A model generated the notes under the pieces. It did not search any database. It saw only the letters and a program-made list of their open reading frames with translations, and was not told where the DNA came from. From contig JACQYI010000027.1 in the NCBI GenBank assembly GCA_016208305.1, positions 1-64,000 on the forward strand: 64,000 nucleotides of DNA. The letters are read 5' to 3'. The stretch comes from Oscillatoriophycideae cyanobacterium NC_groundwater_1537_Pr4_S-0.65um_50_18. GTDB taxonomy: Bacteria; Cyanobacteriota; Cyanobacteriia; Elainellales; Elainellaceae. A program made the translations under genes and the position numbers. Every line of letters begins with the position of its first letter. Position 1 is the stretch's first letter. Shown here piece after piece: positions 5,016 through 45,162 of the stretch.

Positions 5016-5175
5016 GATGCAGAAAATTCAACTCCTCTTAGTTAGACCCCAGATAGCCCCTAGAACTCTACAAAACATCTGCCAGAGTCAGTCAAAAAGC
5101 TTCAACAGGCTTCTGCAATACGTTAGAGTGATTTCTATTAAGTCTCAGGCTACAAGCCGTTACAGCGCTCCAGTT

Positions 5176-8100
5176 ATGAACCCTACCTTCCTCGATCGCC
5201 TCCATAGTCCAGAGCGTCCCGTCCTTGTGTTCGATGGCGCAATGGGCACCAACCTTCAGGTACAAGACCTGACTGCCGAAGATTTTGGCGGCGCTGAGTA
5301 TGAAGGGTGTAACGAATACTTAGTCGTCACCAAGCCCGAAGCCGTTGAAAAAGTCCATTGCGACTTTTTAGCAGCAGGAGCCGACGTCATTGAAACAGAT
5401 ACCTTTGGCGCAGCCTCGATCGTCCTGGCAGAATATGACTTGAGCGATCGCGCCTACGAGCTAAATAAGCTGGCGGCAGAGCTGGCAAAGCGCTGCACAG
5501 CAAAATTCTCCACCCCCGAAAAGCCCAGATTTGTGGCGGGTTCCATCGGGCCAACAACCAAGCTGCCAACTCTGGGGCATATCGACTACGACACCATGAA
5601 AGCCTCCTTTGTCGAGCAGGCGCAGGGGCTATATGACGGAGGCGTAGACCTGTTCTTGGTCGAAACCTGTCAAGATGTCCTGCAAATCAAGGCAGCCTTA
5701 AACGCGATCGAAGAAGTGTTTACCGAGAAGGGCGATCGCCGTCCCCTCATGGTGTCGGTGACAATGGAGCTTCAGGGCACCATGCTGGTCGGCTCCGATG
5801 TCAGCGCCATGCTCAGCATTTTGGAGCCTTACCCGATCGATATCCTGGGGCTAAACTGCGCCACAGGGCCCGATCGCATGGCAGAACATATTCAATATCT
5901 GTCGCAGCATTCGCCCTTCGTCATTTCCTGTATCCCCAATGCCGGAATTCCGGAGAACGTCGGCGGTCATGCCCATTACAAGCTGACCCCCATAGAGCTA
6001 AGAATGGCGCTGCTGCGCTTCGTCGAAGACTTGGGCGTGCAGGTGATTGGCGGCTGCTGCGGCACAAGACCCGATCACATCCAGCAGCTCGCCGAACTCG
6101 CGCCGACGCTTCAGCCCAAAGACCGCCCGGTACGCATTCCCCGCTGGGAGCTAAACGGCAGTGCCGACTCTCTCGATCCGCGTCCGGCGTTGCAATACCC
6201 TCCGGCGGCGGCCTCCCTCTACTCTGCCCAGCCCTACGACCAAGACAACTCTTTTCTGATCATTGGCGAACGGCTCAACGCCAGCGGCTCCAAAAAATGC
6301 CGAGAGTTGCTGAATGCCGAAGATTGGGATGGGCTGGTGGCTCTGGCGCGATCGCAGGTGCGAGAAGGGGCGCATGTTTTGGATGTCAACGTGGACTATG
6401 TCGGACGAGATGGCGTTAGAGATATGCGCGAACTCGTGTCTCGCCTCGTTACCAACGTTACCCTGCCGCTGATGCTCGACTCGACCGAGTGGCAAAAGAT
6501 GGAGGCAGGCTTGAAGGTGGCTGGCGGCAAATGTCTGCTCAACTCCACCAACTACGAAGATGGCGACGATCGCTTCTTTAAGGTGCTAGAGCTAGCCAAG
6601 CAGTATGGGGCAGGGATTGTAGTCGGGACGATCGATGAAGATGGCATGGCGCGTACCGCCGAAAAGAAGTTTCAGATTGCCCAACGCGCCTATCGAGATG
6701 CGCTGGAATACGGCATTCCGGCTCACGAAATCTTCTACGATACTCTGGCATTGCCGATCTCAACCGGAATCGAAGAAGACCGAGCCAACGGCAAAGCCAC
6801 GATCGACTCCATTCGTATGATCCGCGAACACCTGCCGGGGGTGCATATTGTCCTGGGGGTTTCCAATATCTCTTTTGGGCTGAGTCCGGCAACCCGCATG
6901 GCGCTGAACTCCATGTTCTTGCATGAGGCAACGCAGGCAGGTATGGATGCGGCGATCGTCAGTGCCGCCAAAATTTTGCCCCTAGCCAAAATCGATCCCA
7001 AACATCAAGAAGTTTGTCGGCAGCTGATCTACGACGAGCGGCGATTTGATGGCGATATTTGTAGCTACGACCCGCTAATGGAGCTGACCAAGCTGTTTGA
7101 AGGCGTTTCGGCCAAAGAAGCGCGATCGAGTGGGTCAATTACCGATTTGGCGATCGAAGAGCGCTTAAAGCGCCACATCATCGATGGTGAACGGATTGGG
7201 CTAGAGGATGCCCTGAAGCTGGCCTTAGAGCAGTATCCGCCGCTGACGATCATCAATACTTTCTTGCTCGACGGCATGAAGGTAGTGGGCGAACTCTTCG
7301 GCTCCGGACAGATGCAGTTGCCCTTTGTCTTGCAGTCTGCCGAAACCATGAAATCGGCGGTCGCCTTCCTAGAGCCGTTCATGGAAAAAGAGGATTCTAA
7401 CCAATCCAAAGGCGTTTTCTTGATTGCCACCGTCAAAGGGGATGTGCATGACATCGGCAAAAATCTGGTAGACATCATCCTCACCAACAATGGCTACAAG
7501 GTGATTAACCTGGGCATCAAGCAACCTGTGGATAACATTATCGAAGCCTACGAGCAGCACAAGGTAGACTGCATTGCCATGAGCGGGCTGCTGGTGAAAT
7601 CAACGGCTTTCATGAAAGAAAACCTGGCGGTGTTTAACCAGCGCGGCATCACCGTACCCGTAATTCTAGGCGGTGCGGCACTCACGCCCAAATTTGTCTA
7701 TGAGGATTGCCAGAACACCTACAAAGGCCGCGTCATCTACGGCAAAGATGCCTTCTCGGATTTGCATTTCATGGACAAGCTGATGCCCGCTAAGCAGTCA
7801 GAAAACTGGGATGATCTGAAGGGTTTCTTGGATGAAGCAGCGGATTCGGAGGCGATCGCCATCGAAGAAACGGTAGAGACTCCCCCTCAGCCGATCGCTG
7901 AGCCATTGCCAGAAGACACACGGCGATCGGATGCCGTCAGCCTGGACATTGTGCGTCCAGTGCCGCCCTTCTGGGGTACTCAGATCTTGCAGCCCCAAGA
8001 CATCCCGATCGAAGAGCTGTTTTGGCATCTCGACTTGCAGGCGTTAATTGCCGGACAGTGGCAGTTCCGCAAGCCCAAGGAGCAGTCCCGTGAAGACTAT

Positions 8101-8775
8101 GACGCTTTCCTGCAAGCCAAGGTTTACCCGGTTTTAGAAGAGTGGAAGCAGCGCATCGTCAGCGAGAATTTGCTGCATCCGCAGGCGGTTTACGGCTATT
8201 TCCCCTGCATCTCGGAAGGGAACTCGCTGCATATTTACCATGCGCCAACGCCTCCGCTGGCAGAACCCAGAACCACGTTCAGCTTCCCTCGGCAGCGATC
8301 GCTCCGGCGGCTCTGCATTGCCGATTTCTTCCAGCCCAAAGAGGCTTTCGAGTCGGGCGGGGCGATCGATGTCTTCCCGATGCAGGCGGTAACAATGGGC
8401 GAGGTGGCGACCCAGTTTGCCAAGACGCTGTTCGAGTCAAATCAATATACCGACTACCTCTATTTCCACGGCTTGGCAGTGCAAATGGCGGAAGCCCTGG
8501 CAGAATGGACTCACGCCCGAATTCGACGAGAGCTGGGCTTTGGCGACCAGGAACCCAACAATATTCGAGATATGCTGGCGCAGCGCTATCAAGGCTCACG
8601 GTATAGCTTTGGCTATCCGGCTTGCCCCAATATGCAAGACCAGTACAAACAGCTCGACCTGCTAGAGGCGCAGCGCATTGGCTTGTATATGGACGAAAGC
8701 GAGCAGATTTATCCAGAGCAGTCCACGACGGCCATCGTCGCTTACCATCCTGCCGCGAAGTATTTTAGCGCCTAG
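5176..8775 (+). CDS. metH: cobalamin-dependent methionine synthase
   Basis: About 1199 residues, the usual length for MetH, which transfers a methyl group from methyltetrahydrofolate via cobalamin to homocysteine. Domains in order: a homocysteine-binding barrel with Zn ligands C228 (GLNCATGP) and C294-C295 (GGCCGT), a pterin-binding barrel ([13 protein letters not shown] onward), a B12 domain with DVHDIGKN (H758 is the lower cobalt ligand), and a C-terminal SAM-binding reactivation domain ending [11 protein letters not shown] and GLYMDES. ATG 5176 is chosen because [20 protein letters not shown] begins the conserved fold; an in-frame ATG at 5017 would add 53 unrelated residues that start at the edge of a repeat element. 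A strong hairpin follows the gene. Confidence 0.95.
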
Positions 8776-19731: not shown

Positions 19732-20196
19732 ATGAACCCGATCGCCGCGCTTAGTCCAATTTCTTCGCCCTCAACCGCCGATCATTTTGCCATTACCTTT
19801 GCGCCCCTCTCGTTTGAAGAAGTTTACGCATTGGCAGATGATCCTGCCAACGGGGCGGTCGTGCTGATGAGCGGCATGGTGCGCAACCAAACCGGAGGAA
19901 GGACGGTAGTGGCCTTGGAGTATCAGGCTTACGAACCGATGGCGATCGCTGTCTTTAAGCAAATTGCTCAAGAGGTGCGCCAAACCTGGAGCGATGTTAC
20001 CCATGTGGTGATTCACCATCGTACTGGACGCTTGAGCATTGGAGAAATCAGTGTTCTAGTGGCGATCGGCTGTCCCCATCGTGCAGAGGCATTTGCGGCC
20101 TGTCAGTATGCGATCGATGCGCTCAAACAAAACGCTCCCATCTGGAAAAAGGAGTGGTACAACGAGCAGGAATATAGCTGGGTCAAATGTTGCTAA
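19732..20196 (+). CDS. moaE: molybdopterin synthase catalytic subunit
   Basis: 154 residues with the MoaE core: NGAVVLMSGMVRNQTGGRTV, LEYQAYEPMA, VVIHHRTGRLSIGEISVLVA, HRAEAFAACQYAIDALKQNA and PIWKKEWY, including the conserved lysines near the end. MoaE with sulfur-carrying MoaD makes molybdopterin from precursor Z. No moaD is adjacent. Its 3' end overlaps the convergent cheW gene by 14 bp. Confidence 0.93.
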   Translation: MNPIAALSPISSPSTADHFAITFAPLSFEEVYALADDPANGAVVLMSGMVRNQTGGRTVVALEYQAYEPMAIAVFKQIAQEVRQTWSDVTHVVIHHRTGRLSIGEISVLVAIGCPHRAEAFAACQYAIDALKQNAPIWKKEWYNEQEYSWVKCC

Positions 20197-20767
20197 GGTT
20201 CAGCAGGAAGACCGTTCCGAACGGTGACGCGATCGCAATATGGCTGGCAATGCCGTTCATAGCTTTGCGGTGAGCCACAGGGATAGGATGGGTGGCTGCA
20301 ATCGGTAACTCCACCAGGACAGGGGGGCGATCGACTGGGATAGCCGTCAGGGCTTTACCAGAGGCGGCAATCACACAAAACGGTTTCTCTCGAATTTCCT
20401 CTAAAGGATCGAGGTTAGCGGTGGCGCGATCGCCTTTGATTGCAGCCAGAACGGGACGCAGATTGAGAACAGGCAGCGGCTGATTACCCCAATAAATCAG
20501 CCGATTTGACCCCATATTTTGGATGAGAGCCGCTTGGTGAGCAACCCGCAGAACGGCAGCGGGCGGAAGCGCAAACCAATAGTCGTCAATTTGGAAAGCG
20601 ATCGCTTTGTAGCTGCTTGCTTTGTCAGTCTCTGTTTTATGAGCCTCTGTCTTATGAGCCTCTGCCTTGTGAGCCTCTAAAGTCTCTGAGGTATCCAAGG
20701 TCTCTAAGATCTCTAAGGTCTTTAAAGGGGCGATCGGCAATCGGGGAGTACGCATGGGTTTTACCAT
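20183..20767 (-). CDS. CheW-like adaptor with repetitive N-terminus
   Basis: 194 residues, the last gene of the minus-strand chemotaxis operon; its ATG abuts the TAA of the CheA gene. The CheW fold begins at about residue 55 (AIAFQIDDYWFALPPAAVLR) and includes RLIYWGNQPLPVLNLRPVLA. The N-terminal region is low complexity, with EAHKAEAHKTEAHKTETDK preceded by LKTLEILETLDTSETL. A second CheW in the cluster may couple a different receptor to the same kinase. The first CheW is at 27648-28640. Confidence 0.8.
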   Translation of the reverse strand: MVKPMRTPRLPIAPLKTLEILETLDTSETLEAHKAEAHKTEAHKTETDKASSYKAIAFQIDDYWFALPPAAVLRVAHQAALIQNMGSNRLIYWGNQPLPVLNLRPVLAAIKGDRATANLDPLEEIREKPFCVIAASGKALTAIPVDRPPVLVELPIAATHPIPVAHRKAMNGIASHIAIASPFGTVFLLNLSNI

Positions 20768-23662
20768 TTAGAAAGCAGGGACAAGAGCTGAAGCAGTCAT
20801 AACGGTATCTAGTATTTCCAGCAGTCCGGCAGAAGTATAGGGCTTGCTGATGAAGGCATTGGCTCCCAGCTCCGTAGCAAATTGACGGTATTTATCGCTA
20901 CTGCGAGAGGTCAGCATGACAACGGGAATGGCCTGGAGATCTGGCGTTTTTCGGAGCTGGGTGAGAAATTCAAAGCCATTCATCCGAGGCATTTCAATAT
21001 CGGAGATGATCAGATGCACATCGGCCTGTTGCTGTAGGTAAGCCAGTCCTTCTAACCCATCACCCACTTGAGACACCCGGTAGCCTCTTTCCTGCAAAGT
21101 TCTGGCTAGCGTTTGGCGAACGGTTAGCGAGTCTTCAATCAGCAAGATGTGAGCAGGGGTCTGAGGGAGTGAGGTTGCGAAAGGGTGCGCCGCATCGCGC
21201 AAAGCAAGAGGCGGAGTTGAAGGCGTAAACGGCTGAGAAGTTGACGGCTGAGCTTGACGAAACTGCTGTAAGAGCAGGGCAGGGTCAATTACCAGAGTTA
21301 GCTGACTGTCTCCCAGGATGCTACAGCCGTAGACATAGGGCGGGGGAGCGATCGCCGTTCCCAACGGACGAATGACCAACTCTTGTTCTCCCAACATCTG
21401 ATCGACCTGTAAACCCCAAATGCTGTTGGACGATCGCATCAGAATCACAGGGGAAAGCGTGCCCTGCTGAGAGGAAGCTGAGCAAGGGTAGTGGAGCAGT
21501 TCAGACAAGGGATAAACCGGAATCATGCGATCGACCTGATCGATTTGCCAGCGCAAAACTTTCTGATGGCTACGGGTTTGACTCAGTTGATCACCCTTGG
21601 GTAAGATCACTTGCTGAATGAGGTGAGTTGATAGGGCGTAGGTCATGCCCTGATTTTGGCAAACCATCAGTCGAGTAATGGTGATTGACAGAGGCAAAGA
21701 CAGCGTAAAGCAGGTTCCCTGCCCTGGCGTAGAGCTGACAATGATGCTGCCTTTTGAGGCTTGAATCTGCGACCGCACCATATCTAGCCCCACCCCGCGA
21801 CCTGATAAATCACTCACTTGGGTGGCCGTAGAAAAGCCCGCATGGAATAAAAACTCAGAGAGTTGTGCTGTAGAAGCCGTTTTAGCGGCCTCTGGGCTGA
21901 GGAGACCGATCGCCACTGCTTGAGCGGCAACGCGCTGCCAGTCAATTCCCTGCCCATCATCCCAAATTTCAATGAGCGTGCGGTTGCCCTGATGGTAGGC
22001 ATGAATTTGGATTTGCCCGATTTCTGGCTTGCCACTGGCGCGACGATGCTCAGGCGATTCAATCCCATGGTCAAAGGCATTGCGAACCAGGTGCAGAAGA
22101 GGATTGTAGAGTTTTTCGGCGATCGCCTTATCGACTAGCACATGGGTGCCGCTCAGCGTCATTTCAACAGGTTTGTGATGAGTAGCGGCAAGCTGCTGCA
22201 ACAAACGCGGAAAGCGATTCAGCACCTCTCCCAAGGGCTGCATTCGAGCAGTCGTTAGGTCATCTTGCACGCTGGTGAGCAGTCGCTTCTGAGCTTCACG
22301 GGTTTGGCGGATGGTTCGAATCTGGTGCTCTAGCGTTTCACCTACCATCTCTAGCTGCACGAGATCATTGAGTGCCGACTGCACCAGCACCTGAAAGTCA
22401 GTGTATCGATCCATTTCTAAGGCATCGAAAGCCGTTGAAGCAACAGAAGGTCGAGCTATAGGCTGAGCAGGTTCCTGAGCCACAGAGCCTTCGCCCATCA
22501 CGTCTGACCAACTTTGTAACTCGCTCAGGGTGCGTTGGTGCTGCCGCAGAGAAGCCAACAGCTCTTGAACGCCAAGACGGAACTGAATATCCTGATTGGT
22601 TTGTTGGTTCTGATTGATTAGCAGTTCTCCGGCCAAGTGATCCAGACGTTCGAGCTGTTCTAAATTGACGCGAACAACTGGAAGTGGCTCGGAAGGTGCA
22701 GAAGGGGAGGCAGGAGAAAGCGGTAATGATACAGGAAGCGAAAGCGGCTCGATCGTCGCTTCCACCGGAGCTGCTAAAGCCTCTACTAACCTAGATTCTG
22801 GCTGAATATCACCAAATAGAGCATCCAGGCTCAGCAATGCGATCGGGTCAGAAGCATTTGAGACAGTTTCAGGCTTTTGGGGGTGATGGGCTAACTGCTT
22901 GAGAGGCTGTGAGGCAGTGCCGCCTTGGGTGCGATCGCCTCTCAAGACAGCGGCTTGCCCCTGACGAAAATCAGCGAGGGCAAGGGTGGCAATCTGCTGA
23001 ACCTGATCAGGGTGAGCGGTTAGAGCCGCGAGTGTCGTTTGGGCAATTTCACCAAATCCCTTGAGCTGCAAAGATTCTGCCAAGCCTAGAAAAACCTCCG
23101 CTTCGGATTGGAGATGCTTAAGCAAATTGCTAGCGGGTTGGGTAAGGGCGATCGCCAAATTCTGTAACCGCTGCTCTACTCCGCTCTCGAACATGGACTG
23201 CACCAGGTCAAACCCCAGCTCAGCAGACGTTGGCAGCGGCGGCTCATGATCAAACAGCGCTCCTAGATGGGTTCGCATCCGGGACAGCACCGTAGCCGAT
23301 CGATGCAACACATCGGATTCATTTACTGATGTACCCATAAACTCAGCCATGAGCGGCTCTCTCAAGCATTCATAAGCCTGAAATAGCAGAGCTGTAAACT
23401 CGGCATCAATCACGACTTCCGGATTGTAGAGTGTCTTAAACACATCTTCCAGAACATGCGCTACAGATTTAACGGTGTCTAGCTCAATACTGGCAGCGGC
23501 TCCCTTGAGGGTATGAGCCGCCCGCATCAAATTGTGGACTTGAGCCGGAGTGCGATCTTGTTTGAGATTGAACAGCTCTTGTTCGATCGCTTGCAGCAGA
23601 TCATGGGCCTCAATGAGGAAGTTGGCATAGTCTTCCTGGCGAATCGTAGGAGAAATCGGCAT
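20768..23662 (-). CDS. CheA-type hybrid histidine kinase with C-terminal receiver (PixL/PilL-like)
   Basis: 964 residues. Order: Hpt domain with H50 in MRAAHTLKGAAASIEL, a long linker, dimerisation and HATPase domain (HLVRNAFDHGIESPEHR, DDGQGIDW, SDLSGRGVGLDMVRSQI), a CheW-like coupling domain (RLMVCQNQGMTYALSTHLIQ onward), and a REC domain near the end (ILLIEDSLTVRQTLARTL, IISDIEMPRMNGFEF with the phosphoacceptor Asp). This is the usual layout of the kinase in cyanobacterial pix/pil clusters. It follows the MCP gene with a hairpin in the 102-bp gap and directly abuts a second cheW. Confidence 0.92.
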   Translation of the reverse strand: MPISPTIRQEDYANFLIEAHDLLQAIEQELFNLKQDRTPAQVHNLMRAAHTLKGAAASIELDTVKSVAHVLEDVFKTLYNPEVVIDAEFTALLFQAYECLREPLMAEFMGTSVNESDVLHRSATVLSRMRTHLGALFDHEPPLPTSAELGFDLVQSMFESGVEQRLQNLAIALTQPASNLLKHLQSEAEVFLGLAESLQLKGFGEIAQTTLAALTAHPDQVQQIATLALADFRQGQAAVLRGDRTQGGTASQPLKQLAHHPQKPETVSNASDPIALLSLDALFGDIQPESRLVEALAAPVEATIEPLSLPVSLPLSPASPSAPSEPLPVVRVNLEQLERLDHLAGELLINQNQQTNQDIQFRLGVQELLASLRQHQRTLSELQSWSDVMGEGSVAQEPAQPIARPSVASTAFDALEMDRYTDFQVLVQSALNDLVQLEMVGETLEHQIRTIRQTREAQKRLLTSVQDDLTTARMQPLGEVLNRFPRLLQQLAATHHKPVEMTLSGTHVLVDKAIAEKLYNPLLHLVRNAFDHGIESPEHRRASGKPEIGQIQIHAYHQGNRTLIEIWDDGQGIDWQRVAAQAVAIGLLSPEAAKTASTAQLSEFLFHAGFSTATQVSDLSGRGVGLDMVRSQIQASKGSIIVSSTPGQGTCFTLSLPLSITITRLMVCQNQGMTYALSTHLIQQVILPKGDQLSQTRSHQKVLRWQIDQVDRMIPVYPLSELLHYPCSASSQQGTLSPVILMRSSNSIWGLQVDQMLGEQELVIRPLGTAIAPPPYVYGCSILGDSQLTLVIDPALLLQQFRQAQPSTSQPFTPSTPPLALRDAAHPFATSLPQTPAHILLIEDSLTVRQTLARTLQERGYRVSQVGDGLEGLAYLQQQADVHLIISDIEMPRMNGFEFLTQLRKTPDLQAIPVVMLTSRSSDKYRQFATELGANAFISKPYTSAGLLEILDTVMTASALVPAF

Positions 23663-23764: not shown

Positions 23765-26700
23765 TTACAATTTGAATTGTCCGACCGTGGTTTGCAAATC
23801 GCTAGCGGTCGTCAGAAGCTCTTGAAAAGAGGTGGCAATCTGTTCAGTGGCGATAGAGGTTTCGTTGGCGATCGCCACTACATCTGCCATCGTTTGAGCC
23901 ACCCGCTGCGAGTCCTGCGTTTGCGTTTGCGTTGCCTGGGTGATGTGCTGCACAAGCTGACTAATTTGGGCGGTAGCGCTCATGATTGCGGTCAAACTCT
24001 GGCGTGTCTCGTTGACCAGCGTTGTGCCGTTCACAACCTGCTCAATCCCAGTAGCCATTCCCTGAGACACAATGCTGGTTTCTGCCTGAATTTCTTGAAC
24101 CAGCTTTTCAATTTCGGTTGTTGCTTCTGCCGATTGCTGCGCCAGCGAACGAACTTCATCTGCCACGACAGCAAATCCTCGCCCATATTCCCCGGCTCTT
24201 GTCGCCTCGATCGCCGCATTGAGCGCCAAAAGCTGGGTTTGCGTCGTGAACCCTGCAATCAAGCTGACCACCTTAGAAATCTTCTGGGATGATTCACTCA
24301 GTCGCTTAATCTTCTTACTGGTTTCTGCTACCGTTTGGCGGATTGCCTGAATCCCTTCAACCGTGCGGTTCATAGCGATGTCGCCCTGCTGCACTGTCTG
24401 GTTTGCCTGCTGCACAGCCGTTTCTACTTGCTGGGCACTGCTGGCAACGGCTTGTGTTCCTGCTGCCATAATCTGAATTTGAGCTAAGGCGGTCGTCATC
24501 TGCTGCGATTCTTGCTGAGCACCCTGCGCTAGCTTGGCAATCTCGTTGCTGTTGCTCTGAGAAGTATCGCTCATCCGCAGGGCAGCATCCTGCACCTGCA
24601 ACACAATTCTCCGGAGGGACTGGAGCGTATTGTTATAGGCATCAGCGATCGTTCCCATTTCGTCTTCGGTGATGGGGGCACGCACTGTCAGGTCGCCTTC
24701 TAAAGCCGGACGCACAGCCATTAGAAGCTGCAAGGCACGTTGTTGCAGCAGTTCTTTAGAGGCTTTTTCTCGCGCAGCAGCTTCGGTTAGCTGTTGCGAC
24801 TGTGCCTGAAGCTGTTGGGTATACTCTGCTTGCTGCAGGGCAATGCCCAACTGGTTGGCAACCTGCATCAGCAGATTGATTTCACCCTCTTCCCAAACGC
24901 GGGAGCCACTATTTTGGAAGGCGGAGAGCAAGCCCCAGAGCTGATTTCCCTGGAAGATAGCTACAACGGCACAGGCTTTGACCTGGTATTGCTCTAATGC
25001 CTCGACATGGCAATCCGTCATGAGTTTACGCGGAGCCTGAAGATTGAGGTGTCCCCCTTCCCACAGGGTTTCACCCAGATGAATATCGTCCACAATGAGG
25101 GGAATATTTTGGCGAAAGCGCCCGCCCTGATGTTCGCCAATGTAGGGATCTTCCCAACCGCTACCCGTTAGGCTAGGGTAGCCTCCCGTGACAGACTCTG
25201 CGGTAAAGTCGCCAAAGAAATCGGGACGGAATTTGTAAATAGTGACTCGTTCTACATTGAGCAAGCTCCGAACTTCCTGGGTTGCAGTTTTAAAGATCGA
25301 CTCAATATCCAGCGTGTTGCGAATGCGGTTGACTACACGAGCCAGCCCCTGTTCGCGATCGATCGCTTTTTGCATTTGTAGCGTTTTTGCCTGCATTTCC
25401 TCGACATATTCTGCCTGTTGCAGGGCAACGCCAAGTTGGTTAGCAATCTGCATTAACAGGTGAATTTCAGAAGCTTCCCAATGTCTTGCGCCTGTGTTTT
25501 GAAAGGCCGAAAGCAGACCCCAAAGCTTTTGTCTGCGGAAAATAGCGACAACTGCACAGGCTTCTACCTGGTAGTATCGCAAGGCTTCAACATGGCAGTC
25601 AGTCAGCGGTGTGCGAGCCTCAACGTTCATCAGTCCCCCTGCCCAAGGGGTTTCACCGATGTTGATATCATCCACAATCAGCGGCTCGTTGTGGCGAAAT
25701 CGCCCGCCTTGATGCTCGTTGAGATAGGGATCTTCCCAACCGCTGCCAACTAACCGAGGATAGTGGCCAGAAATCGTCTCTTCAATAAAGTCACCAAAGA
25801 AATCAGGGCGAAATTTATAAATTGTGACCCGCTCTACCTTGAGCAGGCGAGCCACCTCCTGGGTTGTGACCTGGAAGATTGCCTTTATATCGGGAGCGCT
25901 ACGCAGCTTTTGGAAAACACGCCCGCTAGCCTTTTCGCGTGCCACTAGCTTTTCTAGCTGTACTTCCTTGGCTTCTACATGCGCAATGAATTCGGCCTGC
26001 TGGAGAGCAATGCCAAGCTGGTTGGCAATCTGGGTCAGAAGTTGAATCTCCGCTTCTTCCCAGCGTCGGGGATTAGTGTTTTGAAAAGCAGAGAGCAAAC
26101 CCCAGAGCTGATTTCCCTGGAAGATAGCCACAACGGCACAAGCTTTGACCTGATAGTATTGCAGGGCTTCGATGTGGCAATCGGTGAGGGGCTTGCGAGG
26201 AGCTTGAGTATTGAAGTGTCCTCCCGTCCATAAAGTTTCACCGCTATGAATATCGTCCACAATCAGCGGCTCATTGTTGCGAAATCGTCCGCCTTGATGC
26301 TCACTGAGGTAAGGATCTTCCCAGCCGCTACCTACCAACCGAGGATAGTTGCCTACCACTGTTTCTTCAATAAAATCGCCAAAGAAATCAGGGCGAAATT
26401 TGTAAATCGTGACCCGCTCTACGTTGAGCAGTCGGCTAACTTCTTGAGTGGTGACTCTAAAAATAGCTTGCAAATCTACCGTACTGCGAATCTTGTGAAT
26501 CACTTTGGCAGTTGCCTGTTCTCGGGCAATCACCTGCTTGAGCTGCATTTTAGACTGAACAAACTGCAACGCTAAGGTCAATTTGGCTGCGATGTCAGTT
26601 AGCAGGTAAATCTCTTGTTCTTGCCAGCTTCGCATTTGGCTACATTGCTGCACGACGAGCAAACCCTGCACGCGATCGTTATGGATGAGCGGAATCGCTA

Positions 26701-27658
26701 AGCTTGCCAAAATCTGAAACCGCTCTAGGAGCTGGCGCTGATAGGCAAAAACTTGCTCTTGAGGCTGATTTTGGAGGACGATAGCCTGCTGACGGGCATA
26801 GTCACGGGCATTTTCGGCTCCAAAGAGCGTGATGGGTAAAATTTCGCCCTGCATTGGCGTCCAGGCAGAGGCGATCGACTCAGTCAAAATCTTGCCCTTG
26901 CTCTCAGCCTCAAATCCTACAATGACCACGCGATCAGCGTGCAACCGATCGCGGATTTCATGCACAGCTATGTTAAACAAGCTGTCTTGGCTATCGGCCT
27001 GCTGCATTTGTTGAGCGATCGCCACCAACCAATCCCGGTTAGCGGCAAACTGCTGCTGCACTGTGGCAGAAAGCTGTCCTTGAAACTGCTGCTGCACCAC
27101 ATGCCCTAGCTTATCGAGGACGGCAGGCAGCTTATCAAATTGGCTTAGCTTCTCGACGATGCCCGGATTATTGGAAAGACCAACCTTAGACAGCTCGATT
27201 TTGAACCCTGCCTGAGTTTTTTCCATCTCTTTTCGGACAACCTGGATCACCGATAAGGCTGACTGCATGGCAACTCCTGGCTCAGACAACCCAGAACTCT
27301 GGTAGCTCGCAGATCTAGCTCTACCTGTCTCGCTAGGTCTACCTGTCTCGCTGGGTCTGCCTATCTCACCCACTCTGCCAAAAGTGTCCCGACCCAAAGC
27401 CTCATAACTAGCCGTACCGTTGACCTTGCTAGAAGAGCCTTCGTTATTCTGAGGCGGTCTGATCGTTTCCATGTTGCCAAAATAAGGAGCTGCGATCGGC
27501 GGCTCTGGAGGCAGAGAAACGGACACTTCGGGTGATTCTTGAAATAGGGTAAACAAATCCTGATCGAAGAGAGGGGTGTTCATGGGTTTTAAGTCTCTAA
27601 GGGCGGAAAGAGTTTGAGCAGAGTCGGCAGAAATTTTTTGCGTTGATTCAGGCGGCAT
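23765..27658 (-). CDS. PixJ-like methyl-accepting protein with four GAF domains
   Basis: 1297 residues with no clear membrane segment. A Ser/Pro-rich start (two RPSETG units near 101-112) leads to a divergent GAF (about 215-370), then three close GAF copies at about 380-556, 575-750 and 765-945, each with [25 protein letters not shown] and TDCH(I/V)EAL. Cys494, Cys688 and Cys883, each followed by His, sit where bilin is attached in cyanobacteriochromes; the DxCF second cysteine is absent (DPYL or DPYI). A HAMP-like segment near 975-1020 precedes an MCP signalling domain ([20 protein letters not shown]). ATG 27658 overlaps the upstream cheW by 11 bp; ATG 27583 is an alternative. Likely a soluble light receptor. 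Confidence 0.88.
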
Positions 27659-28640
27659 GAATCTGTAGGCAAGAATCGGCTATTAGGGCATTGGCATCTA
27701 AAACGGGGCTGCTAGAACGCACGAGATAGCCCTGAATAAATGGCAGCACTGTAGAAGGGAAAAGATCAATTGCGGGAGGCTGTAGCTGCCCTAGCGCATA
27801 ACTTTCAATGTCAATGACTTCAGGAACAACCAGTCCCAAAGACTTGTCTTGAGCTTGGATGACGATCGCAGTCCATCCTAAAAACTGCCCTAGCCCTGAA
27901 AGCGGCTTTGCTGTCGAGGCAGCCGTTGTCTGAGCACCAGCCGATTGAGCTAAGAGATTGCCTTGCAGGGTTCTGACTCCTTGAAAGCCAATTTGCAATC
28001 CCAGATCCACAAGCCACAGCATTTCCCCCCGAAAGTTGTAAATGCCAAGCACCGAAGACGGCATATCTGGGACAGGCAAAATGCTGTGGGGCATCACTTT
28101 CATCACCTGTCGAATGCTGATCAGCGGCAGAAGCGCTGTCTCAGCAGAGCTAACTGAAAAGCGGAGAAACCTTAATTCTCCTGGTTCAGTCGCGGCAGTC
28201 GAGATGGGCTGAAGGAGTGCCGATAGATCGGCTTGTGGTTTTTGGTTTAGCCAATCTGCCAGTGAAATAGAGGTCGTAAGAGGGGCTTGGCTTTGAGAGT
28301 TCACAGCCGTTAGGGTTGGGGCGATCGTCCGCTCCTGACTCCAAACGAACTGTGATGTCCCGATTTGCCGACAGCTCACCTTTAATCTGTTCAGGCGGCT
28401 CAAATTAAGCCTCAGAACTGTGCGATGAATGCTGGACATCAGGGGTTCAGGGCTGGGAGGCTGCATGGCCTCAATCAGCACATGTAGACAGTTGCCCCGC
28501 CAGCCAGCCTGAGTCACCATCTTTTGGCGCTTCAGATGGCGGTTCATTAGCATGGCGATCGCCTTCGCATCTCCTTGGTAGGCGAGTTGCAGTAGATGAG
28601 CATGGTTTTGGCGATCGTCCTGTAACTGCGTCTGCACCAT
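27648..28640 (-). CDS. CheW-domain adaptor with an extra N-terminal domain (PixI-like)
   Basis: About 330 residues from ATG 28640, 2 bp after the CheY stop codon; an upstream in-frame start would overlap CheY by about 90 bp. The N-terminal 100 residues ([40 protein letters not shown]) form a small domain found before CheW in some cyanobacterial pix clusters. The CheW domain follows at about 155-320 ([39 protein letters not shown]). It should link the downstream-encoded receptor to the CheA kinase. Confidence 0.82.
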
Positions 28641-28642
28641 GT

Positions 28643-29008
28643 CTATCTCCCCATCAATCGGGTCACTGTTTGCAGAAACTCCTGTTGATTGACGGGTTTC
28701 GGCAGATAGGCATCTGCGCCCAGCATGTTGCCCCACATCTTATCTACGTCTGTATTTTTGGTAGAACACATCACGATGGGTATCTTGCTGGTGGCCTGAT
28801 TAGTTTTGAATTCGCGGCAGAGTTCAAAGCCACTCTGTCCCGGCAGAATAACATCCAGCACAATTAGGTCAGGCTTTTGCCAACTCAGCCGAGCCTGGGC
28901 TTCTTCACCGCTCTTGGCGCTAATGACCGATAGACCTGCTTGCTGGAGATATCGGGTCAGCATCTCGGTTTCAGTCAAACTATCTTCAATTAATAAAACA
29001 GTACTCAT
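28643..29008 (-). CDS. CheY-like single-domain response regulator (PixH/PilH-like)
   Basis: 121 residues, a stand-alone receiver: acidic pair in VLLIEDSLTETEMLTRYL, phosphoacceptor in DLIVLDVILPGQSGFELC, switch Thr/Ser in IVMCSTKN and Lys in YLPKPVNQQEF. It lacks an output domain, so it should act by protein contact, as PilH does on the pilus motor pathway. It sits 102 bp downstream of the PATAN-REC regulator and 2 bp before the cheW start. Confidence 0.92.
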   Translation of the reverse strand: MSTVLLIEDSLTETEMLTRYLQQAGLSVISAKSGEEAQARLSWQKPDLIVLDVILPGQSGFELCREFKTNQATSKIPIVMCSTKNTDVDKMWGNMLGADAYLPKPVNQQEFLQTVTRLMGR

Positions 29009-29110: not shown

Positions 29111-30481
29111 CTACTGAAGCGCCGAGGTTTCGTCCATGCTTTTTTGCAGCAGTAGAGCCGTAGTTTCACCCATCTCGTAAGGATTCCCCAAAAAAGCAAG
29201 TGGCTCGACAGGAGCTTGTCTGCTTGAAGTATTTGCTACAGGCACGGCAGCAGGTTGCGGCAAATATTGATGGACGATCGCCATCACTTTATCTGCATTA
29301 ACAGACTTCGATAAAAAGTCAGAAGCACCAACTACCCTGGCACGCACGCGATCGACAATTCCGTCATTTCCGGTCAAAATCACCACGGGGGTATTTTTGA
29401 AGGCAGACATGCGGCGAATCTGAGAGCAAATTTCATAACCGCTAGCGATCGGCATCACCAGATCTAAAAAAATCAGCCCCGGCTTTTTTTCGAGCAGCAG
29501 CGGTAAAGCATGCACCGAATCCTGCACACTCACATAGCGATAGCCTGCTGCCGTAATGATCTGCTCCATCCACTGGCAAACCGAAGGACTGTCGTCAATA
29601 CAGACGATCAGCGGCGCATTTGCTGCGGGAGAAGCCATGACAGGAGCATTAGATATGGGCGCTTTTGCTAGTTGACCTTCAGGTTTTTTGTCCTCAGATT
29701 TTTTGCCTGTAGAAGCATGGGGAAGAGACAAATCGGGCATTTGGCATAGCTCAATCAAGTCTCGCTGAATATAAGGCACCAAAACACGGGTCAAAGTCAA
29801 TAACTCTTGCCCTGTGGATCGGGCTAAATCCCGGAGCGTCGAATTTGGACTCATGAACGCTTCAAGCGTCTGATAGGTTTTGGCCGTTACAGCCTGTTTT
29901 AGCTCAGCAGGGCGCTTAATAACGGGCACTGCATTGGGCGAATAATGCACTAGGCCAGCGCTATTCCAAGCATTCCAAGCCTGTCGTGCTTGCTCAAGCA
30001 CATGCTCTGCACTCAAAGGAGCCAGCGGATCACCAAGCTGCTCTTGCTTGTCGGGTGCATAACGAATCTGGGTAATTTGCTCACTCGCATAGAGCAGATC
30101 GAATAAGACCTCAGAAGCGGCTGCTTGAATCAGAGAAATGATGGGCGCTCGTCTGACATGCTGTCGTTTGAGTAAAACCGACAAGACCAAGTACTCCCAG
30201 TAAAATGGCGGTTCCTGGTTCTTAGGCTGAATGGTATTGGGCTGAATAGTGGGGCAGAATTGTTTCAGCAAGCGGTGCCAGCGTCGAAATCGATGTTCAC
30301 CCCCTGCAGTCCAAATTAACCGACCTAACCGAAAGTAAAGACTCCATCGCCTTTCATCGACCGTTAGGAAATCTAACCTACCGCTAAAGTGAGACTGAGC
30401 AGCACTTTGAAACTGGCTCACCAACTGGTTAACGGTGATACCCCTCACCGTTCTAGAAACTTCATTTGCACAATTCACCAT
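29111..30481 (-). CDS. PATAN-REC response regulator (PixG/PilG/PatA-like)
   Basis: About 456 residues. The N-terminal PATAN-type region (QLVSQFQSAAQSHFSGRLDF, RRWSLYFRLGRLIWTAGGEH, RRWHRLLKQFCP) extends to about residue 260. A receiver near the C-terminus has CIDDSPSVCQWMEQIITAAG, GLIFLDLVMPIASGYEI and VVILTGNDG. PatA-like regulators head pix/pil clusters and control pilus-based phototaxis. ATG 30481 (AAGGA 10 bases upstream) is chosen; GTG 30505 with AGGGA 6 bases upstream is equally defensible. First gene of the operon. Confidence 0.85.
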   Translation of the reverse strand: MVNCANEVSRTVRGITVNQLVSQFQSAAQSHFSGRLDFLTVDERRWSLYFRLGRLIWTAGGEHRFRRWHRLLKQFCPTIQPNTIQPKNQEPPFYWEYLVLSVLLKRQHVRRAPIISLIQAAASEVLFDLLYASEQITQIRYAPDKQEQLGDPLAPLSAEHVLEQARQAWNAWNSAGLVHYSPNAVPVIKRPAELKQAVTAKTYQTLEAFMSPNSTLRDLARSTGQELLTLTRVLVPYIQRDLIELCQMPDLSLPHASTGKKSEDKKPEGQLAKAPISNAPVMASPAANAPLIVCIDDSPSVCQWMEQIITAAGYRYVSVQDSVHALPLLLEKKPGLIFLDLVMPIASGYEICSQIRRMSAFKNTPVVILTGNDGIVDRVRARVVGASDFLSKSVNADKVMAIVHQYLPQPAAVPVANTSSRQAPVEPLAFLGNPYEMGETTALLLQKSMDETSALQ

Positions 30482-30785
30482 AGCTTTTGCTGTCCTTGAG
30501 AACACACCGACATCCCTAATTTCTGCATCCCAAAACTGTTCTCTTGCCGATTAAAGCCTGAGAACAAATTCGTTCTGGGAAAATGATTCAGAAAGTTTCC
30601 AGATAGCGGATGCATTCTCAGAAAAGTGAATCAGGGAGACTAGATGCGATTGAGAACTAGAAATAGCCTATATTTTCCTGCGCGATCGCCCCAATCGTAA
30701 TCCTGCGGAATCGGACGAAGGCGATCGCCCTCGCATCAGCTTTTCTCCTCAATTTTCCGTATTGATACGTAGCTTCTATGGTTAT

Positions 30786-38318: not shown

Positions 38319-39581
38319 CTAGAGGCTTACACCAGATAGCAACTGGCTAGCAGACTGCTTGAGCAACTCTACTTTGTCAATTTGCTCCCAAGGCAGATCC
38401 AGATCGGTGCGCCCAAAGTGCCCATAGGCAGCTACATCTTGGTAGAATCGCCCACCACGCTCAGCCGGAAGCTTAGTCAAACCAAAGGTTTGGATAATCC
38501 CAGCCGGACGAAGCTCAAAGTGCTTTTTCACCAGATCTAGCAGGCGATCGTCATCGATTTTCCCGGTACCAAAGGTATCTACCATGATGCTGACTGGACG
38601 AGCCACGCCGATCGCATAGCTAAGCTGCACCTCACATTTGTCTGCCAACCCAGCCGCCACAATGTTTTTGGCAGCATAGCGGCAGGCATAAGCCGCACTG
38701 CGATCAACCTTTGTGGGGTCTTTTCCTGAGAAAGCACCCCCCCCATGACGCGAGTAGCCGCCATAAGTATCTACGATAATTTTACGACCTGTCAGCCCTG
38801 AGTCACCCTGTGGCCCACCAATCACAAATTTGCCTGTAGGGTTAACTAAAAAGCGGGTTTGGCTATCGGGCTTGATTGCAATATCTTCAAAGATAGGGAG
38901 CACTACGGTCGTCCATAAATCTTCTTTGATTTTGGTCTGGACAGCAGTCGTCTCGGTGATCGCGCCAATGGTTTCTGTATGCTGAGTAGACACCAAAATA
39001 GTATCAATGCCTACCGGCTTACCGTCTTCATAAATAACCGTCACCTGAGTCTTGCCATCGGGTCGCAGATAGGGCAATTGACCTGTCTTGCGAACAGCCG
39101 CCAACTTGCGAGAAATTCGATGCGCTAAGCTAATAGGCAACGGCATTAGCTCAGGCGTCTCATTGCAAGCAAAGCCAAACATCAGACCCTGATCGCCTGC
39201 ACCAATAGCATCTAGCTCTTCTTCGCTTTTTTGTTCGCGTGTTTCTTGAGCTGTATTGACACCTTGAGCAATATCAGCAGACTGTTCATCGATCGCCAAC
39301 AGCACAGCACAGCTATTAGCTGAAAATCCATTGTCAGAATCGGTATATCCAATTTCTGCAATTTTTTTTCGGACTAAATTGACAAAATTGACTTGTGCTG
39401 AGGAGGTGATTTCTCCAGTCACTAGCACTAGACCCGTATTAACCACAACTTCGGCCGCCACGCGGCTGCTCGGATCGAGTGCTAGCAAAGTATCGAGAAT
39501 CGTATCTGAAATCTGGTCACAAATTTTGTCTGGATGACCTTCGGTAACGGATTCGGATGTAAAAAGATAACGGCGAGCCAA
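38319..39581 (-). CDS. metK: S-adenosylmethionine synthetase
   Basis: 420 residues, normal for MetK, which makes SAM from methionine and ATP. Signature stretches: [80 protein letters not shown]. Start codon is TTG at 39581 with GAGG 8 bases upstream; no ATG fits the conserved N-terminus [11 protein letters not shown]. Convergent with the kinase gene. No SAM riboswitch is apparent in the 450-bp upstream region. Confidence 0.97.
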
Positions 39582-43629: not shown

Positions 43630-45162
43630 CTAGATCGCCTCTTTGCGCCGAGTGGTCTTGTCTCCCAACTTTTGGAAGTAGCCCCACTCTACTTGCTCTT
43701 CAGAGAGATCAGGGTCAATCCCAGCAAACACATCTCTGAACAGCGTCCGAGAGCCATGCCAAATATGACCAAAGAAGAACAGCAGCGCAAAACAAGCATG
43801 TCCAAACGTGAACCAACCGCGAGGGCTGGTGCGGAAAACCCCGTCTGAGCCTAGAGTCTCGCGATCGAACTCAAACGCTTCACCCAGCTGAGCCTTACGC
43901 GCAAAACGCTTGACAATAGCCGGATCTTTGAAGACCTGACCATCTAGCTTGCCGCCATACAGACTTGCCGTAACGCCAGCTTGCTCAAAGCTGTACTTAG
44001 ATTCTGCGCGGCGGAAGGGAATATCTGCCCGAACAATACCGTCGCCATCAACCAAGACAACAGGGAAAGTTTCAAAGAAGTTAGGCATCCGACGAACCGA
44101 AAGCTCTCGTCCATCAGAGTCTTTGAACACCACATGCCCATCCCAGTCTTGAGCAATACCATCGCCCTTAACCATTGGCCCTGTTCGGAACAAGCCACCC
44201 TTAGCAGGGTTGTTGCCAATATAGTCATAGAAGGCAAGCTTCTCAGGAATTGCAGACCAAGCTTCAGAAAGGCTAGCGCCATCTGCCAAGCTTGCCTGAA
44301 CCCGCCGAGTGATCTCTTTCTGGTAGTAGCCGCTATCCCATTGGTAGCGGGTTGGCCCAAACAACTCTACAGGCGTTTCTGCACAGCCATACCACATGGT
44401 TCCAGCTACCACGAAGGCAGCAAAGAAGACCGCAGCAATACTACTGGACAAAACCGTTTCGATATTCCCCATCCGCAAAGCGCGATAGAGGCGCTCAGGA
44501 GGACGAACCGTAAGGTGAAACAAACCTGCAATGATGCCAACAATACCCGCAGCAATGTGGTGTGCTACGATGCCGCCTGGATTGAACGGATCAAAACCTT
44601 CAGGCCCCCATGCTGGCGCGACAGGTTCGACGTGACCTGTTAGACCGTAGGGGTCAGACACCCACATCCCTGGCCCAAACACACCCGTCAGGTGGAATGC
44701 GCCAAACCCAAAGCAGAGTAAACCTGATAAAAACAGGTGAATTCCAAACATCTTGGGCAAATCAAGAGCAGGTTCGCCCGTGCGGGGATCTCTGAACAGC
44801 TCTAGATCCCAGTAAACCCAATGCCAGCAGGCTGCCAAAAACAGCAGACCCGACAGGACGATCTGAGCAGCAGCAACGCCTTCAAACGACCAAAAACCAG
44901 GGTTAACCCCTGTTGCGCCCGTAACGCTCCAGCCAGCCCAAGAATCGGTTACACCAAGACGAGCCATGAAGGGCATGACAAACATGCCCTGCCGCCACAT
45001 TGGATTCAAAACTGGGTCACTAGGATCAAAGATGGCCAACTCATAGAGTGCCATTGACCCAGCCCAACCCGACACCAGAGCAGTATGCATCAGATGCACA
45101 GAGATCAGCCGCCCTGGATCATTTAGGACGACTGTATGTACGCGATACCAGGGTAGTCCCAT
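43630..45162 (-). CDS. psbB: photosystem II CP47 chlorophyll-binding protein
   Basis: 510 residues, the usual CP47 length. It begins [20 protein letters not shown] and has six membrane helices with paired His ligands for chlorophyll ([33 protein letters not shown]) and the large lumenal loop between helices 5 and 6. It is an inner antenna of PSII. Upstream is a 254-bp gap to the divergent ferredoxin-like gene, which probably holds both promoters. Confidence 0.98.

Follow-up and report, generated by a model that had tools for sequence, protein, structure and literature searches.

A PixJ-type taxis receptor with three tandem GAF domains of the JSC1_58120g3 far-red lineage in a cyanobacterial genome

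Which colour of light, and which bilin, would a taxis receptor use if it carries several similar bilin-type GAF domains in a row, and how old is such a row? These questions are raised by a gene for a PixJ-type methyl-accepting receptor of 1297 amino acids (23765..27658, reverse strand) in a 64,000-nucleotide stretch of cyanobacterial DNA, here called the window. An earlier note on this DNA had described three tandem near-identical GAF domains, apparently from a recent duplication, and had regarded simple red/green or related photocycles as possible.

Pfam placed four GAF stretches and an MCPsignal domain above the cut-off, and the overall order is GAF1-GAF2-GAF3-GAF4, a weak HAMP-like stretch and the MCP signalling domain. 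All of these, like the gene, are on the reverse strand. GAF1 (26543..27046) is degenerate: it has no Cys at the bilin position, its sole Cys being C339, and its identity to GAF2-4 is 19-24%. GAF2 (25976..26521, residues 380-561), GAF3 (25394..25939, residues 574-755) and GAF4 (24809..25354, residues 769-950; adjoining the output part) are the putative far-red/verdin-lineage cyanobacteriochrome domains discussed below. They are direct repeats with a start-to-start spacing of 582 and 585 nt. The HAMP-like stretch (24611..24700, residues 987-1016) scored 21.4 bits, under the Pfam cut-off of 25, and the MCP signalling domain (23876..24337, residues 1108-1261) scored 138.8 bits. In the hydropathy profile of the receptor, no 19-residue window exceeded a Kyte-Doolittle value of 1.6 (the best was 1.31). 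Therefore, no membrane segment is indicated, as the earlier note had said.

The canonical bilin Cys was found in each of the three domains exactly where it had been claimed: C494 in GAF2 (TDCHIEAL, codon 26177..26179), C688 in GAF3 (TDCHVEAL, codon 25595..25597) and C883 in GAF4 (TDCHVEAL, codon 25010..25012), all on the reverse strand. Thirteen residues past it there is a second Cys, namely C507 (26138..26140), C701 (25556..25558) and C896 (24971..24973) on the same strand. The Cys-His site and the Asp of the WxD motif are present in GAF2, GAF3 and GAF4 and throughout alignment A3, whose 70 rows comprised 3 from the window and 67 picked out of 93 lineage candidates. The second Cys is conserved in the lineage (64 of the 70 rows), is shared by JSC1_58120g3, and is replaced by Tyr or Phe in red/green references. 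At the DxCF position the domains read DPYL (GAF2), DPYL (GAF3) and DPYI (GAF4), which places them outside the DXCF class; the absence of this cysteine had been correctly noticed. Their insertion loops are present but free of Cys, and the insert-Cys class and lineage were rejected for GAF2-4. From the Cys-His site, the WxD motif and the fit of a GAF4 model to solved cyanobacteriochromes, GAF2-4 are likely cyanobacteriochrome GAF domains, each with a predicted bilin site, in agreement with the earlier suggestion of a taxis-type receptor that has three of them (three Cys-His sites plus MCPsignal). Their tandem arrangement, with Cys-His in each, was confirmed as well. They are not near-identical: pairwise amino-acid identities are 73.5%, 73.1% and 66.3% (66-74%), and nucleotide identities are 69-72%.

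The gene neighbourhood, also on the reverse strand, is that of a taxis operon. Upstream of the receptor lie genes for a PatA/PATAN-type response regulator with DUF4388 and receiver domains (29111..30505; PixG-like by position), a single-domain response regulator (28643..29008; PixH-like) and a CheW-domain protein (27648..28736; PixI-like), whose end overlaps the receptor start by 11 nt. Downstream lie genes for a CheA-type kinase with Hpt, HATPase, CheW and receiver domains in Pfam (20768..23662; PixL-like) and for a small protein (20183..20767) that has no Pfam match and is CheW-like by position only. An ORF similar to this small one follows cheA in loci L061 and L063 and in several others. 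We gathered GAF domains from 65 loci of named genomes and from further relatives. The order PatA-RR-CheW-MCP was seen in 41 of the 65 loci and MCP-CheA in 39, with both in 32. Of the loci that remain, some are truncated at contig ends, and others, for example the Microcoleus-type loci L090-L092 and L094, do not have that order. Among the ORFs with a GAF of the lineage in these 65 loci, 50 of 64 matched the MCP end of the receptor. By its C-terminal MCP domain and pix neighbourhood, the receptor would be classified as a PixJ and the operon as pixGHIJL-type.

According to the available part of one article (PMC5812497), PixJ1 of Synechocystis and TePixJ are likewise MCP receptors with bilin-type GAF domains, encoded beside PATAN-type and CheY-type regulators, CheW and CheA. 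PixJ1 differs in its two membrane segments and its blue/green GAF domain; the receptor in the window has neither a membrane segment nor a DxCF cysteine. The genes around that receptor follow the pix/tax1 arrangement described in the same part of that article, according to which PixJ1 is required for positive phototaxis, a role that PtxD has in Nostoc. In Phormidium lacuna, PixJ lowers photophobic sensitivity, as stated in the accessible portion of another article (PMC13383048); therefore, a role in sensitivity, not steering, is also possible for the receptor in the window.

For the colour of GAF2-4, their lineage was examined by sequence, tree and fold. When proteins of solved structure were searched, the best match was JSC1_58120g3: 277 bits in the whole-protein search, in which the best stretch was 380-559 (GAF2), 258.5 bits for GAF3 and 280 bits for GAF4. 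The red/green domains NpR6012g4 and AnPixJg2 scored 146-166 and 137-143 bits against GAF2-4, respectively. Identity to JSC1_58120g3 was 66% for GAF2, 62% for GAF3 and 66% for GAF4. At 19 contrast columns, those with one letter in all three red/green references and another in JSC1_58120g3, GAF2, GAF3 and GAF4 had the JSC1 letter at 10, 12 and 10 columns and the red/green letter at 5, 4 and 4. A long loop ahead of the Cys-His site is present in GAF2-4 and JSC1_58120g3 and absent from NpR6012g4, AnPixJg2 and Slr1393g3. The Anacy_2551g3 far-red lineage (6UV8) was rejected for GAF4, with 75 bits versus 280 for JSC1_58120g3.

The careful tree, with rows chosen among the gathered domains, had 53 rows: 22 with the long loop (one of them cut at a contig start), 23 related rows without it and 8 of the red/green type. 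GAF2-4 and JSC1_58120g3 fell in a 22-row clade with support of 99/98, the bootstrap being not quite settled. This clade was nested in a group of 45 rows (100/99) apart from the eight red/green-type rows. When the loop columns were left out, GAF2-4 and JSC1_58120g3 were in a 21-row clade (99/99), with one long-loop row (L064) outside, and the split from the red/green rows was supported at 100/100. In neither tree did GAF2-4 group with AnPixJg2, NpR6012g4 and Slr1393g3 rather than JSC1_58120g3, the mark of a canonical XRG domain. In a quick tree of 153 rows, a 68-row clade with support of 100 contained GAF2-4 and JSC1_58120g3, and the three red/green references were in the same larger group of 99 rows with support of only 82. 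Therefore, the JSC1_58120g3 lineage may be an offshoot of the wide red/green (XRG) group. By clade and long loop, GAF2-4 are predicted members of the verdin-specific far-red lineage of JSC1_58120g3. Of 388 genomes sampled from the class, 19 (the window's own counted) had a GAF domain matching JSC1_58120g3 at E 1e-50 or better. No relative was found among viral contigs with the sequence patterns used, and the best place in plasmids was 31.5% identical, too low to be informative.

The AlphaFold2 model of GAF4 had a pLDDT of 92.6. Its best structural match was 6XHG (TM 0.94, rmsd 1.0 Å over 177 residues, Z 31.4); among entries of other proteins, the highest Z was 25.3. Entries 6XHG and 6XHH are both titled 'Far-red absorbing dark state of JSC1_58120g3', and their titles name biliverdin in one case and 18-dihydrobiliverdin (DHBV) in the other. 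For this lineage, the primary paper is reportedly Moreno et al. 2020. A model of all three GAF domains together had a pTM of 0.47 with joining helices predicted at about 50 residues, so the domain arrangement was not used beyond these long helices.

JSC1_58120g3, from Leptolyngbya sp. JSC-1, resembles GAF2-4 in clade, long loop, WEDPY motif, second Cys and fold (1.0 Å); it differs in that GAF2-4 are only 62-66% identical to it and that three such domains stand in a row here. The nearest relative among the available sequences, in FACHB-36 (L065), is 90% identical over the part available in a locus cut by a contig start; there, one JSC1-type GAF is followed by a red/green-type GAF, as opposed to three in a row here. 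JSC1_58120g3 binds biliverdin and DHBV and does not bind A-ring-reduced bilins such as phycocyanobilin (PCB), according to the available part of PMC10151467.

Sequence, trees and fold together favour a far-red photocycle with a verdin chromophore for GAF2-4 over a red/green one with PCB. We give a probability of about 0.72 to the explanation that the gene encodes a soluble PixJ-type receptor whose Cys-bearing GAF domains are all of the JSC1_58120g3 far-red, verdin-binding lineage. Several points count against it. The identity to JSC1_58120g3 is 62-66%, while single pocket changes can shift cyanobacteriochrome colour, as the accessible text of PMC7504144 states. The red/green letter stands at 4-5 of the 19 contrast columns. 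In AnPixJg2_BV4 (5ZOH), which was engineered to bind biliverdin, four letters were changed. Two of them, Tyr and Val, occur naturally in GAF2-4 and JSC1_58120g3, but the other two biliverdin-accepting residues are absent from GAF2-4; the engineered domain is 44% identical to GAF2, and its parent, AnPixJg2, is in the red/green group. A further point, the single psaA/psaB pair, is taken up below.

For chromophore, colours, photoactivity of all three domains, signalling and a role in taxis, we infer the following course. The most likely chromophore of each of GAF2-4 is biliverdin or 18-dihydrobiliverdin, attached to the cysteine of the Cys-His site. With a verdin, the domains would absorb far-red light in the dark state, and 15Z/15E isomerisation would give a form of shorter wavelength. 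As in PixJ and PtxD, the switch would pass through the helices joining the GAF domains to the MCP end and set the CheA-type kinase of the operon. The PatA-type and CheY-type regulators would relay the signal to type IV pili, changing the direction or sensitivity of movement, again by comparison with PixJ and PtxD. With three like sensors, capture might become more probable, or the output might be graded. The genome has two matches to heme oxygenase and three to ferredoxin-dependent bilin reductases; therefore, the cell should contain biliverdin, the intermediates of its reduction and PCB.

A second psaA/psaB pair is a defining feature of far-red photoacclimation (FaRLiP). No such pair was seen in this genome, which is 98.46% complete: its two PsaA/PsaB matches make one pair. 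Therefore, the genome gives no obvious reason why the cells would seek far-red light. The PsaA/PsaB survey covered 20 genomes, the 19 with a match to the lineage and G001. Two matches each were also found in G003, G165, G055, G061, G062 and G149, of which G003 and G165 are the genomes of the L061-like and L063-like arrays described below. Four full-length copies each were found in G303, G016 and G010. G312 had eight matches, five of them full-length, and G317 had eight, mostly pieces; G385 had four, two of which were short pieces, and G321 had one. Three matches, partly pieces, were found in G002, G001, G008, G012, G020 and G364. These varying counts mean that the lineage occurs with and without a second photosystem I set. 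A tie of the lineage to far-red photosynthesis was thus rejected, with one psaA/psaB pair in the receptor's own genome and carriers of both states.

Other genes of the genome were noted in passing. A psbA-family protein outside the window (L160; G000:C7:36546-37418) has APNTHHF in its C-terminal region, where the normal D1 proteins of the genome have ERNAHNF; presumably it resembles a rogue D1. It was rejected as a chlorophyll f synthase, having Gln-Trp at positions 130/131 and not Gln-Asp, which we take to be the motif and numbering of that enzyme. Two further psbA pieces (L164, L165) lie at contig ends. In the window are also a full-length photosystem II protein of the PF00421 family (43630-45162, reverse strand), an S-adenosylmethionine synthetase (38319-39581, reverse strand) and, by its domains, a cobalamin-dependent methionine synthase (5017-8775, forward strand). 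With 103 matches to GAF family PF01590, the genome may have many sensors for light or for small molecules.

The layout of a Cys-less GAF followed by three long-loop GAF domains also occurs in Drouetiella hepatica (L061), in MAG PMM_0036 (L062) and in Stenomitos rutilans (L063). Genome G303 has three long-loop GAF domains in a row (L129, L148, L153), and the MCP end there shows 87% identity across 256 residues. The five GAF4 copies formed a clade with L067 (99/96; 99/91 without the loop columns). The GAF2 and GAF3 copies formed a ten-row clade (100/99; 100/100 without the loop columns), inside which the five GAF3 copies grouped at 94/86 (94/75) and the GAF2 copies of the five genomes were a grade around them with no clade of their own. 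A recent duplication, with GAF2-4 of the window as one clade, was rejected by the AU test (p 3.7e-17, lnL difference 121), also when the loop columns were left out (p 7.2e-15, lnL difference 112) and in an incomplete variant with loops cut from part of the rows only (p 0.00018). Since the array is found in four other genomes and the window-only clade is rejected, the array is not recent, contrary to the earlier note; the duplications thus appear to predate the split of these five genomes. In a comparison of the window with L061, L062 and L063, some parts of GAF2 and GAF3 from a single genome resemble each other as much as, or more than, they resemble the same copy of another genome. Patchy later exchange between GAF2 and GAF3 is possible.

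In the window, L061, L062 and L063, all the Cys-bearing GAF domains of the receptor are of the long-loop type. In L064, L065, L066, L067 and L035, a long-loop GAF is mixed with other GAF domains, as typed by score and length and not by spectra. One accompanying GAF in L064 and in L035 is a short-loop member of the wider clade; L065 is cut at its contig start. Short-loop relatives form tandem triplets too, in L078 and L101 alongside GAF domains of other types, so repetition is found outside this array as well. Another MCP receptor, encoded on the contig of the window but outside the window itself (G000:C11:153199-156348; L002, L004), has four GAF domains, one of which (LSDCHVAAL) falls in a side branch of the far-red clade; its Drouetiella counterpart (L111) has a similar operon.

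The comparison among genomes bears on whether all three domains work. The lineage could be far-red with one photochemically important GAF domain, most likely GAF4; GAF2 and GAF3 would then have weak activity or a structural part. This explanation overlaps with ours and shares its claim of lineage, and we consider it rather unlikely. Mean identity between species peaks in GAF4 (86.5%, with 84.2% for GAF2 and 80.6% for GAF3; 10 pairs each), which also has the lowest dN to Drouetiella (0.04 versus 0.09 and 0.14). The Cys-His site, however, is kept in all 15 array domains of the five genomes (window, L061, L062, L063 and G303), and dN is far below dS in every domain, with dS near saturation.

Another explanation makes GAF2-4 single-Cys red/green cyanobacteriochromes with bound PCB and a photocycle between the red and the green state. 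The missing DxCF cysteine fits it, as do the Cys-His site and WxD motif, which are as in red/green domains, and NpR6012g4 and AnPixJg2 are among the next relatives and in the same 99-row group of the quick tree (support 82). JSC1_58120g3 is nevertheless much closer in sequence, in tree (split 100/99; 100/100) and in fold. We therefore regard a simple red/green photocycle, which had been offered earlier as possible, as improbable. Dual-Cys chemistry, in which C507, C701 and C896 touch the bilin and give a shorter wavelength or a second linkage, is very improbable, as JSC1_58120g3 has the same Cys and yet a dark state titled far-red absorbing, even if this Cys is kept in 64 of 70 A3 rows, is Tyr or Phe in red/green references and stands two residues before the position of I336, which, by the numbering we assume, is one of the four AnPixJg2 biliverdin residues.

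Multi-bilin taxis receptors and verdin far-red GAF domains are each known already. The former are exemplified by PtxD (NpF2164) of Nostoc punctiforme, which is, like the receptor here, a taxis receptor with multiple bilin GAF domains: in the available part of PMC5812497 it has seven GAF domains, at least six of them with bilin, and switches among six colours, whereas here all the Cys-bearing GAF domains would be of one far-red-type lineage. What appears new is an array whose Cys-bearing GAF domains are all of the verdin far-red type, common to several genomes and here found without a second photosystem I set. In the accessible portions of the literature searched, neither far-red phototaxis nor an all-verdin GAF array was found, and novelty in print is uncertain.

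The nearest studied relative of the far-red, verdin-bound domains proposed here is far-red and of the biliverdin type, so the receptor may guide cells by far-red and not red/green light. We propose, tentatively and at somewhat less than even odds, a taxis receptor tuned to far-red alone, with three verdin-bound sensors in series, long kept in several genera, and no second photosystem I genes were seen in some of its carriers, this one included. Among multi-GAF taxis receptors the best known is PtxD, in which colours are combined; a far-red array of one type would show what the repetition of like sensors is for. Animal cells make biliverdin, and GAF2-4 may be natural small far-red modules that accept it. 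The array would connect the verdin-specific far-red lineage with behaviour, and it would allow a direct test of far-red phototaxis in a cyanobacterium that has no second photosystem I set. If the far-red-only receptor is real, its three like sensors would serve sensitivity or a graded response and not a range of colours, and steering by far-red light would be uncoupled from far-red photosynthesis, for example in reading shade, depth or neighbours.
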